Origin: Pseudomonadota bacterium
GTDB lineage: Bacteria; Pseudomonadota; Alphaproteobacteria; Micropepsales; Micropepsaceae
Assembly: GCA_018241025.1 (NCBI GenBank)
Contig: JAFEEQ010000011.1
Coordinates: forward strand, 124,001 to 188,000
DNA length: 64,000 bases
Direction: 5' to 3'
Positions 16,560 to 20,905 of this stretch are shown here, in pieces. A model generated the notes under the pieces. The model worked only from the letters and a program-made list of their open reading frames with translations, did no database searches and had not been told where the DNA came from. How positions within the stretch are numbered: position 1 is the stretch's first letter; each line of letters opens with the position of its first letter. Both the position numbers and the translations under genes were made by a program.

Positions 16560-17440
16560 ACTTTGTCCTTATCGTTTGCTGAGCGAATCTGCCCGCGGAT
16601 CGCATCCCACTCCGCATCGCCGAGCGCGGCGAGGCGCGAGAAGTTCCCGCCAGCCGCGAGATGCATGCCGCCGTCGATCGCGATCGTCTGGCCGGTAAGA
16701 TATTCGCAGCCATCCGCCATCAGGAACGCGGCGAGGTTGGCGAGTTCCACCATCTCGCCGTTGCGCGCCATGCCCGCGGTCATGCGCGCGGCTGCTTCGT
16801 TGTTGCCGGAGGCGGCCGGGTTCAGGCGTTCCCAGGCACCCTTGGTCGGGAAAGGTCCGGGCGCTATGGCATTGAAGCGGATGCCGTGCGGACCCCATTC
16901 GGCGGCCAGCGACTTCGTCATGATGTTGAGGCCAGCTTTCGACATTGCCGAGGGAACGGTGAACGGACCGCCGTTCCAGATCCAGGTGGTGAGGATCGAG
17001 ATCACGCTCGCCTTCTTCTGCTCCTCGATCCAACGCTTGCCGCAGGCCAGCGTGACGTAGAATGAGCCGCGGAAGACGATGTCGGAGATCGCGTTGAAGC
17101 CGCGCGGCGACAGATCCTTGGTGCGCGAGATGAAATTGCCCGCCGCATTGTTGACGAGGCCCGACAGCGCGCCACCATCGGCCCAGATCGTACCGACCAT
17201 TTCATCGACGGCTTCGGCCACGCGGATATCGCAGGCGATGCCGGAGACTTTCGATCCGGTCGCGTCGGCGATCCGCTTCGCGGTCTCGTCCAGCACGCCC
17301 TTGCGCCGGCCACAGATGTAGACGGTCGCGCCGAGCTGGGCATAGGCCTCGGCCATGACTTCGCCGAGCCCGGTTCCACCGCCGGTCACCAGGATGCGCT
17401 TGCCCTTCAGAATACCGTCTTTGAGCATAAGGTCGTACAT
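16544..17440 (-). CDS. SDR-family 2,4-dienoyl-CoA reductase-like protein
   Basis: A 298-residue SDR starting at ATG 17440 with GGGAGGA 8-14 nt upstream. NADP site: VTGGGTGLGEVMAEAY; NNAAGNF follows. It resembles human DECR1 along most of its length as I recall it: VPSAMSKAGLNIMTKSLAAE, RFNAIAPGPFPTKGAW, VELANLAAFL and a C-terminal region with GNFSRL. These enzymes reduce 2,4-dienoyl-CoA during breakdown of polyunsaturated fatty acids. The active-site lysine is kept, but the position of DECR1 Tyr199 seems to be Trp (in LTTWIWNGG). It is divergent from the helicase gene. Confidence 0.82.
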   Translation of the reverse strand: MYDLMLKDGILKGKRILVTGGGTGLGEVMAEAYAQLGATVYICGRRKGVLDETAKRIADATGSKVSGIACDIRVAEAVDEMVGTIWADGGALSGLVNNAAGNFISRTKDLSPRGFNAISDIVFRGSFYVTLACGKRWIEEQKKASVISILTTWIWNGGPFTVPSAMSKAGLNIMTKSLAAEWGPHGIRFNAIAPGPFPTKGAWERLNPAASGNNEAAARMTAGMARNGEMVELANLAAFLMADGCEYLTGQTIAIDGGMHLAAGGNFSRLAALGDAEWDAIRGQIRSANDKDKVQRSV

Positions 17441-17500
17441 GATCTGTTCCTCCCGAAAACTTTGAGGCACAGTAGGGTCGATGGAGCCCGAAAAGCAAAA

Positions 17501-20110
17501 ATGACGGCAGGGAAAGCCGCAAGCGCAACACGGTCCTCCCCCGTCGTTACGGGGGAGGTGGCTCGCCGCGTCAGCGGCGAGACGAAGGGGGTCAGCTCGG
17601 AGCCCGCCCCCTCCACCATCGCTTCGCGATGGTCCCCCTCCCCCGTAACGACGGGGGAGGAACTGCCAGCGCTCTTCTCCGCCTGGTTCGCTTCGCGCGG
17701 CTGGTCGATCCGCCCGCATCAATCTGCGCTCGTCGAACACGCGTCGCGCGGCGACTCTGTGTTGCTCGTCGCGCCCACCGGCGGCGGCAAGACGCTCGCA
17801 GGGTTTCTCCCCAGCCTGATCGACCTCGCCGGCCAGTCCGCGCGCCGCGCCGCAAAGCTGCACACGCTCTACATCTCGCCGCTCAAAGCCCTCGCGGTCG
17901 ACGTCGCCCGCAATCTCGAAGCGCCGGTGGCCGAGATGGGCCTTCCGATCCGTGTCGAGACCCGCACCGGCGACACCCCGGCCTCGCGCCGCACGCGCCA
18001 ACGTCATCGCCCGCCGGACATCCTGCTCACCACGCCGGAACAGCTCGCGCTTCTCGTTGCCCAGCAGGGCGCAACGACGATGTTTGCGGATCTCAAGACC
18101 GTGGTGCTCGACGAGCTGCATGCGATGTACAATTCCAAGCGCGGCGACCTGCTCGCGCTCGGCCTGGCGCGCCTCAAGACCATCGCGCCCAACCATCGCC
18201 GGGTCGGCCTGTCGGCGACGGTCGCCGATCCGGCGCCGCTCCAGCGCTATCTCGTGCCGCAACCGCTCGCCGGAGAGGCGCGCGCCGAACTGGTGCTCGG
18301 CAAGCCCGGCGCGCCGCCGCGGATCGAGATCAGCGCCTCGGAAGAATACGTGCCCTGGCAAGGCCATCTGGCCCGCCATGCGATGGCCGACATCATGGCG
18401 GCGATCAAATCGGCCAGGACCGCGCTCATCTTCGTCAACACCCGCGCCCAGGCGGAGCTGACCTTTCAGTCGCTGTGGCGGATCAATGACGAGAACCTGC
18501 CCATCGCGCTGCATCACGGCAGCCTCGCGCCACAGCAGCGCCGGAAAGTGGAAGCCGCGATGAGCCGCGGCCTGTTGCGCGGCGTGGTCTGCACCTCGAC
18601 CCTCGATCTCGGTATCGATTGGGGCGCGGTCGACAAGGTGATCTGCGTCGGCGCGCCCAAGGGCGCCGCGCGTCTCGTCCAGCGCATCGGCCGCGCCAAT
18701 CACCGGCTCGACGAATCCAGCCTAGCAGTCCTCGTCCCCGCCAACCGCTTCGAGGTTCTCGAATGCAACGCCGCGCGCGACGCGGTGTTGGCGGGCGAAC
18801 TCGATGGCGAGCGTCTCAAGCGCGGCAGTCTCGATGTGCTGGCTCAGCACATCCTCGGCACCGCCGCGGCGCGGCCCTTCGATGCCGATGTGCTTTATGC
18901 CGAAGCGCGTTCCGCCTCGCCCTATACGCATCTGACGCGCGAGGATTTCGACAAGGTGCTCGATTTCGTCGCCACCGGCGGCTACGCACTCAAGCGCTAC
19001 GACCGCTATGCCAAGCTGCGCCGGACACCGGAAGGCCTCTGGCGCATCGCCCATCCGCGCCTCGCCCAGCAATACCGCATGAATGTCGGCGTTATCGTCG
19101 AAGAGCCGATGATCGACATCCGTCTCCAGGCCAGGGGACGGCCCACGGGCGCCGGCGGCCGCGTGCTCGGCCAGCTCGAGGAATACTTCGTCGAGCAGCT
19201 TGTGCCCGGCGACACCTTCGTTTTCTCCGGACATATCCTGCGCTTCGAAGGCATGCGCGATGATGGCGCTTATGTTTCGAAGACGGCGGAGGCTCAGGCG
19301 CAGATTCCGTCCTACAATGGTGGAAAGTTTCCGCTCTCGACCTTCCTCGCCGAGCGCGTGCGCGAGATGGTCTCGACGCCCGAGCGCTGGGATTTCCTGC
19401 CCGGTCCGGTCGGCGAGTGGCTGCGGATGCAGGAGTTTCGCTCGGTGATCCCGAAGCCCGGCCAGCTGTTGGTCGAGACCTTCCCGCGCGGCTCCAAGGA
19501 ATATCTTGTCTGCTATCCCTTCGAAGGCCGTCTCGCGCATCAGACGCTGGGCATGCTGCTCACTCGTCGGCTCGAACGCCTGCGTCTGCGCCCGCTCGGC
19601 TTCGTCGCCAACGAATATGCGCTTGCCGTCTGGGGCTTGCGCGACATGGGCGGCGCCGACATGGACGCGCTGTTCGACGAGGACATGCTGGGCGACGATC
19701 TCGATGCCTGGCTTCGGGAGTCGAGCCTCTACAAACGCACCTTCCGCAATTGCGCGATCATCTCCGGCCTGATCGAGCGGCGCGATCCGCGCGGCGAGAA
19801 AACCGGGCGCCAGGTCACTTTCTCTTCGGACCTGATCTACGATGTGCTGCGCGAGCACGAACCGGATCACATCCTGCTGCGCGCCACCTATGAGGATGCC
19901 GGCTCCGGCCTGCTCGACATCGCGCGCCTCGCCGATATGCTCAAGCGGGTGAAGAATCGGATCGTGACGCGGCGCCTCGAACGGGTTTCGCCGCTCGCGG
20001 TGCCGGCGCTGCTCGAGATCTCAAAGGAAATGGTCGCCGGCGAGGCGCATGAGGACATCCTCCATGAAGCCGAGGCGTCGCTGATCGAGGAAGCCATGCG
20101 TGTCGATTGA
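17501..20110 (+). CDS. ligase-associated DNA damage response DEXH-box helicase (Lhr-like)
   Basis: About 869 residues from ATG 17501 (an upstream ATG at 17462 is also in frame). Motifs: Q-like RPHQSALVEHA, Walker A APTGGGKTLAG, STPEQ-type LLTTPEQLALL, DELHAMYNSKRGD (motif II), SATVADPAP (III), VCTSTLDLGIDWG (V) and QRIGRANHR (VI), followed by the Lhr winged-helix and C-terminal core. Lhr proteins are 3'-5' translocating DNA helicases; this subgroup travels with an ATP-dependent ligase, an exonuclease and PdeM. Only PdeM is nearby. The first 50 or so codons come from a palindromic repeat inserted in frame. Confidence 0.92.
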   Translation: MTAGKAASATRSSPVVTGEVARRVSGETKGVSSEPAPSTIASRWSPSPVTTGEELPALFSAWFASRGWSIRPHQSALVEHASRGDSVLLVAPTGGGKTLAGFLPSLIDLAGQSARRAAKLHTLYISPLKALAVDVARNLEAPVAEMGLPIRVETRTGDTPASRRTRQRHRPPDILLTTPEQLALLVAQQGATTMFADLKTVVLDELHAMYNSKRGDLLALGLARLKTIAPNHRRVGLSATVADPAPLQRYLVPQPLAGEARAELVLGKPGAPPRIEISASEEYVPWQGHLARHAMADIMAAIKSARTALIFVNTRAQAELTFQSLWRINDENLPIALHHGSLAPQQRRKVEAAMSRGLLRGVVCTSTLDLGIDWGAVDKVICVGAPKGAARLVQRIGRANHRLDESSLAVLVPANRFEVLECNAARDAVLAGELDGERLKRGSLDVLAQHILGTAAARPFDADVLYAEARSASPYTHLTREDFDKVLDFVATGGYALKRYDRYAKLRRTPEGLWRIAHPRLAQQYRMNVGVIVEEPMIDIRLQARGRPTGAGGRVLGQLEEYFVEQLVPGDTFVFSGHILRFEGMRDDGAYVSKTAEAQAQIPSYNGGKFPLSTFLAERVREMVSTPERWDFLPGPVGEWLRMQEFRSVIPKPGQLLVETFPRGSKEYLVCYPFEGRLAHQTLGMLLTRRLERLRLRPLGFVANEYALAVWGLRDMGGADMDALFDEDMLGDDLDAWLRESSLYKRTFRNCAIISGLIERRDPRGEKTGRQVTFSSDLIYDVLREHEPDHILLRATYEDAGSGLLDIARLADMLKRVKNRIVTRRLERVSPLAVPALLEISKEMVAGEAHEDILHEAEASLIEEAMRVD
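17535..17660. repeat. 126-nt composite palindromic element inside the helicase 5' coding region
   Basis: Outer arms of 24 nt (17535-17558 and 17637-17660) are exact reverse complements, and each is itself nearly palindromic. Inside are smaller hairpins (17562-17581, CTCGCCGC/GCGGCGAG; and CCATCGC/GCGATGG near 17614-17631). The element length is 42 codons and leaves the helicase frame open. This is the pattern of palindromic elements that insert into protein genes. Confidence 0.88.
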
Positions 20111-20197: not shown

Positions 20198-20905
20198 ATG
20201 AAACCGGACCTATCGATGGAGGTGTTTGCCGAGGTCAATGGCGAAGTCCTGATGCTCGATCCCGCCGGTGCGCTGTGGTGGCCGGTGGAGCGGACGCTCG
20301 TCTTCTCCGACATTCACTTCGAGAAAGGCTCAGCTTATGCCCGCATGGGCGCGCTGATCCCGCCTTACGACACCCGCGCCACGCTGAAGCGCATGGCCGC
20401 GCTGATCGACCGCTACGCCCCGGCGCGCGTGATCGCACTCGGCGACTCGTTTCACGACATGGACGCGCCGGACCGTCTCGACGCCGAAGAACGCGCGATG
20501 CTCGCATCCATGGTCGGCGCGACGGAGTGGATATGGATCGAAGGCAATCACGATCCCCATCCGCCGGCCTGGCTCGGCGGCACGGTCACCGCCGAGGTCG
20601 CGCTGCGCGGTCTCCTCTTCCGGCACGAGCCGCAATTCCTCTTCCGTCCCGGCGAGATCGCGGGTCACCTACACCCGTGCCATACCGTCTCACGGAGCGG
20701 TCGCTCGCTGCGCCGCCGCTGTTTCGCGACTGATGGTGCGCGGATGGTGATGCCGGCCTTTGGCGCCTATGCCGGCGGGCTCGATGTCCATGACGAAGCG
20801 ATCTCGTCGCTGTTTGCCGACGCCTTCGCGGCCTACATGCTGGGCAATCGCCGGGTCTATGCCGTGGCGGCGCGCGGCGTGCCGAAGATCCGTCGCCGGG
20901 TTTAG
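20198..20905 (+). CDS. pdeM: ligase-associated DNA damage response endonuclease PdeM
   Basis: A 235-residue metallophosphoesterase with the full motif set: DIHFEKG, GDSFHD, GNHD and GHLHP, which bind two metal ions. PdeM-type proteins accompany the Lhr-like helicase and an ATP-dependent ligase in a DNA repair cluster; the ligase and exonuclease are not in this window. ATG 20198 has little ribosome-binding sequence; ATG 20216 is an alternative six codons in. It is convergent with the following gene; the stops overlap at 20902-20905. Confidence 0.92.
   Translation: MKPDLSMEVFAEVNGEVLMLDPAGALWWPVERTLVFSDIHFEKGSAYARMGALIPPYDTRATLKRMAALIDRYAPARVIALGDSFHDMDAPDRLDAEERAMLASMVGATEWIWIEGNHDPHPPAWLGGTVTAEVALRGLLFRHEPQFLFRPGEIAGHLHPCHTVSRSGRSLRRRCFATDGARMVMPAFGAYAGGLDVHDEAISSLFADAFAAYMLGNRRVYAVAARGVPKIRRRV

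Follow-up and report, generated by a model that had tools for sequence, protein, structure and literature searches.

A dispersed palindromic repeat in frame at the 5′ end of a ligase-associated helicase gene in three related alphaproteobacterial species

Can a copy of a dispersed, highly structured repeat lie within the reading frame of a conserved DNA repair gene, and is it then read as protein? The question is raised by a locus in the window analysed here (a single stretch of 64,000 nt), in which a palindromic element at 17535-17660 precedes the conserved core of an Lhr-type helicase. A first-pass annotation of the sequence had noted the element and favoured its translation over a role as 5′ leader. 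We compared the element with its own genome and with those of relatives, and the reading that we prefer, with a probability of roughly 0.7, is that one ancestral copy of a dispersed non-autonomous repeat lies in the 5′ end of the helicase gene, is translated from an upstream ATG and later exchanged its arms and hairpins.

Helicase gene and structure of the element

The gene encodes a ligase-associated DEXH box helicase, scoring 1095 bits against the NCBIfam model TIGR04121 (curated cut-off 850) and carrying the Pfam domains DEAD, Helicase_C, WH_Lhr and DEAD_assoc, an Lhr-type, Lhr-core-like set; its nearest solved structures include 5v9x and 7lhl. With its most likely start placed at ATG 17501-17503, it spans 17501-20110 on the plus strand and is followed by pdeM, the gene of a ligase-associated phosphoesterase (20198-20905, plus strand; TIGR04123, 227 bits versus a cut-off of 150). 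A divergent gene, named as an SDR oxidoreductase from a motif recognized by eye, starts at 17440 (start codon 17438-17440, minus strand), leaving a gap of 60 nt to ATG 17501. The TIGR04121 match begins at residue 72 of the open reading frame (ORF) counted from a TTG, past the element.

The element is a nested palindrome of 126 nt on the plus strand. Its 24-nt ends (17535-17558 and 17637-17660) proved to be exact reverse complements and its length exactly 42 codons, open in the helicase frame, as first annotated; the earlier description of a palindrome stands and can be extended, in that each arm is a hairpin of its own (the left with 10 bp and a 4-nt loop) and three more lie between the arms, namely inner hairpin 1 (17562-17581), a central GGGGG...CCCCC hairpin (17587-17611) and inner hairpin 3 (17615-17633). 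The arm pattern occurs in the window only at the element, and none of 100 shuffles held two or more matches. RNA folding of 17531-17664 gave -105.7 kcal/mol (z -9.9), a stability equalled by none of 200 shuffles, and the modelled strand may form either one long stem with three branches or a row of hairpins. Rfam matches, mostly to miRNA-precursor models and all far below gathering scores, were judged to be chance resemblance to a long hairpin. An intrinsic terminator was ruled out, the strand ending in GGAGGAAA with no U-run on either strand.

The element belongs to a dispersed repeat family

We denote the genome that contains the window G000, and its two nearest relatives carrying the element at the helicase site G027 and G028. 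Searching all of G000 with the element, a check put forward with the first-pass annotation, returned 53 matches, 30 of them at E<1e-3 with both strands counted and most of them half elements of ~55 nt; the element thus occurs elsewhere in its own genome, as a member of a dispersed repeat family. With the G028 version as query and E<=1e-4, there were at least 82 matches in G027 and at least 46 in G028 (40 candidates scored in each). The 92 loci scanned hold 52 distinct full-length copies (35 in G027, 12 in G028 and 5 in G000), one of which, L018, has divergent arms that may pair only by chance. Across the genus, family matches at E<=1e-10 were found in 16 of 41 genomes.

Most copies lie between genes: 45 of the 52 sit in a tandem or convergent gap and adjoin one or more gene 3′ ends, although these placements come from a rough, home-made gene caller, which misplaced the helicase copy of G000 (L001, a cut locus) among the 45. 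Of the other seven copies, four fall within predicted genes, two lie between divergent genes and one adjoins a gene 3′ end with an overlap, and a predicted stop codon lies within 32 nt of 40 of the 52 copies, as counted from the same gene-caller table. Two of the copies placed inside genes (L145 and L180) lie in ORFs without a family match, which are probably spurious. A second coding case is an HK97-type prohead protease of G027 (L177:1473-2138, minus strand), whose reading frame passes through a copy of the element at the C-terminal end.

The helicase site in related genomes

Thirty helicase loci were fetched, that of G000 included, and in 29 the N-terminus was read with the Walker A motif as guide. 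Three of these 29 genes carry the element (G000, G028 and G027) and two (G034 and G013) a different palindromic repeat; the other 24, judged by eye, have neither, and most begin within ~0-20 residues of the core. This bears out the earlier observation that the element adds a segment where related proteins usually begin. A shared N-terminal segment lacking a palindrome, which would have spoken against an insertion, was not found among these relatives; rather, the two closest carry an orthologous in-frame palindrome. Beyond this set, the element was absent by eye from all 77 readable loci among 80 further helicase loci from public genomes (one locus incomplete).

In the drawn tree, the three carriers form a clade (support 100/99), and G034 and G013 form a second (support 97/94). 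The repeat upstream of the core in the second clade (L033 in G034, L035 in G013) belongs to another family (CCCTCTCCCC...GGGGAGAGGG), itself dispersed in these genomes. The G034 copy contains a TAG, so translation there must start inside the palindrome. In the aligned helicase stretch, single in-frame stops also occur just before the core in G009 (TAA, L040) and G014 (TGA, L046), whose true helicase starts probably lie downstream of them.

Start codons and translation

The first-pass claim that no ATG or GTG lies between the element and the core was correct, and extends to TTG: in G000, G027 and G028, the interval up to the conserved LPxxFxxWF that opens the core holds no in-frame ATG, GTG or TTG, and beyond this motif the next GTG lies 32 codons inside the conserved core. 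Because all three species lack such a codon, ribosomes must read some or all of the element, and translation is favoured over a 5′ leader, in line with the original proposal. The account of the start codons themselves needed correction: an in-frame ATG (17501) lies 34 nt before the element, and between it and the core the sole in-frame start codon is a GTG where the left arm ends (17558-17560, plus strand). The in-frame starts available to the three species are thus upstream ATGs and TTGs, the shared GTG within the element and, in G028, a TTG within the element.

The likeliest start is the upstream ATG, which would add the whole element to the protein as a disordered tail. In G027 and G028 an in-frame upstream ATG is preceded by an AGGAG site. 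In G000 the matching AGGG site precedes an out-of-frame ATG at 17481, which opens a 7-codon ORF (17481-17504, plus strand) whose TGA overlaps ATG 17501 (ATGA), an arrangement that suggests coupling of helicase initiation to this short ORF. Start usage seems to differ among the three species. Several points tell against the preferred reading: the three species do not share one homologous ATG as their start, initiation at ATG 17501 may need coupling, and a stable RNA hairpin could slow ribosomes.

Initiation at the GTG, in which case the left arm would form a leader hairpin that controls the start and only the remainder of the element would be coding, is unlikely: the codon is in frame in all three species, and G034 provides a case of a start within a palindrome, albeit a different one, but here a GGGGGAG abuts the GTG without the usual Shine-Dalgarno spacing, the GTG sits at the foot of a stable hairpin, and well-placed upstream ATGs are present in G027 and G028.

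Conservation of frame gives modest support to translation of the element, short of proof. At the helicase site the element measures 126 nt in G000 and 123 and 111 nt in its two relatives, all multiples of three and in frame, whereas copies elsewhere have such lengths in 11 of 49 cases and combine them with an open frame in this phase in 18 of 98 copy-orientations. Open frames are common in this GC-rich element, each frame being open in 32-43 of 49 copies. Where full copies could be compared pairwise at other orthologous sites, six in all, the length difference is a multiple of three in two, as by chance; this comparison omits L028/L166, L142/L192 and L010/L174 (poor flank match or half copy) and L150/L149 (L150 not being among the 52 full copies). 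Once one species has the element in frame, the chance that its orthologs in two more would also be in frame is roughly 1 in 10 to 1 in 30.

On the basis of sequence, we infer that the helicase element is translated. In an AlphaFold model (16-row alignment, mean pLDDT 72), residues 1-52 fall below 50 and the core, from residue 55, lies mostly at 70-90, so that the element most likely adds a disordered or flexible, Ser/Pro/Gly/Thr-rich segment of 42 residues.

Genome-specific arms and origin of the helicase copy

Arms differ by genome. The GT-NNNN-AC form was counted 12 times in G000, 4 in G027 and once in G028, and the GC-NNNN-GC form once in G000, 95 times in G027 and 28 in G028. At the helicase site and at two others (L002/L172 and L005/L153), G000 has its own form and the relative the other, within flanks that are 73-83% identical. 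The inner hairpins likewise differ between G027 and G028 at sites with flanks ~90% identical, the helicase site included, and those that differ resemble other modules of the family.

The idea that pairing or local conversion keeps the two arms of a copy identical was rejected, since G027 copies are not clearly above chance: identical arms were found in 14 of 27 copies against 12.8 expected on re-pairing (p 0.26), with 6 of 8 against 3.1 (p 0.03) in G028 and 2 of 4 against 1.5 in G000. The test requires two 24-nt arms, which excluded 8 of 35 copies in G027, 4 of 12 in G028 and 1 of 5 in G000. The exact arm match in the helicase element thus mainly reflects the consensus of its genome. Together, the arm and hairpin patterns fit exchange among copies across each genome, presumably by gene conversion.

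These arms might instead record an independent insertion in each species by its own subfamily, as they differ among genomes and match the majority form of each, and a second, different palindrome has reached the same spot in another clade. We consider this quite unlikely, because the insertion point is identical, other sites have elements in two species each, and the helicase copies of G000 and G028 alone, among 104 modules, have their inner hairpin 1 module in common; this rare shared module argues for a single ancestral insertion.

Under our preferred reading, a copy of a presumably mobile but non-autonomous, GC-rich palindromic repeat (REP-dimer or MITE-like) would have inserted once at the helicase 5′ end, in an ancestor shared by at least three species. 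It would have been tolerated because the frame was kept and only a flexible Ser/Pro/Gly/Thr-rich tail was added before the folded core, presumably with no effect on the enzyme, and translation would run from the upstream ATG (17501 in G000) through all 42 codons. The copy would then have acquired the arms of its own genome and altered inner hairpins while staying in frame, recombination with other copies being the probable route. We tentatively extend this to a possible view of the helicase N-terminus as an exchangeable cassette that shares in the genome-wide concerted evolution of a repeat family elsewhere intergenic, and which recombination with non-coding copies would rewrite in each species while selection filtered only for frame.

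The counts of perfect GC-type arms, 95 in G027 and 28 in G028, are far apart for genomes whose shared flanks are ~90% identical, and may reflect a recent expansion or loss.

Comparison with known repeats

We likened the family to known repeats by description. Rickettsia palindromic elements (RPE-1 and others) are described as dispersed long stem-loops of ~105-146 bp that are intergenic but also occur as in-frame insertions in conserved genes, and activity has been shown for one enzyme that carries an RPE (PMC2229807). The present family resembles them, as that source describes them, in length and as a long dispersed stem-loop that is both intergenic and, at one conserved gene in three species, in frame, where it would probably be translated; unlike them, a full-length in-frame copy was found in only one gene of its own genome. 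In-frame fusions of ERIC, Neisseria Correia and Yersinia repeats are reviewed in the same source, and ERIC and Correia elements, although from other bacteria, are likewise described there as small inverted repeats whose open frames can continue into those of genes. Caulobacter CIRs share an alphaproteobacterial, intergenic setting, a length of ~110 bp and two arms, but are reported there as never intragenic and closed in all frames, and their GANTC motif occurs in 0 of 52 copies.

GTAG/CGTC REPs, as described in PMC3733652, are found close to the 3′ ends of genes and also within DNA repair genes, and those at N-termini may be non-coding. The family resembles their dimers in its short palindromes set in inverted pairs with structured spacers, mostly downstream of genes, and in a copy at the N-terminus of a DNA repair gene. 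Unpaired end tags are absent, with GTAG near 0 and CGTC near 1 of 104 element ends (CGTC/GACG is internal only, in 39 of 52 elements), as is the CGTC REP stem of 8-9 bp with initial AT pairs and a CCA tail, the outer stem here being CCTCCCCCG.. with TTT/AAA flanks. A RAYT/Y1 transposase as mobiliser was ruled out by the absence of PF01797 from five genomes (0/5; controls positive 5/14). That the element is instead regulatory or intergenic 5′ leader, with the protein starting at an unusual codon such as CTG 17663 or within the core, is very unlikely. In favour of this reading, copies are mostly intergenic, many N-terminal REPs were considered non-coding by Di Nocera et al. 2013 (PMC3733652), and in G013 a TTG immediately follows that genome's different element; against it, the CTG is CTC, no start codon, in G027 and G028, and the next GTG is 32 codons inside the core.

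A literature search did not find this repeat family, which could still have been described; the kind is known, and what appears new is the family together with this conserved coding instance. Rickettsia is the best-known source of in-frame palindromic repeats, and here one lies in a repair gene in three species of another alphaproteobacterial genus, a natural series for reading which changes are tolerated. With arms that follow the genome even at shared sites, the family allows concerted evolution of small dispersed repeats to be put to the test, and the coding copy would reveal its effect on a protein. The family has clear terminal inverted repeats, as would be expected of a MITE. TTT borders the left arm in 45 of 52 copies and, on the inward reading of the opposite strand, the right arm in 39 of 52; no base beyond these TTT/AAA ends is conserved among the 52 copies.
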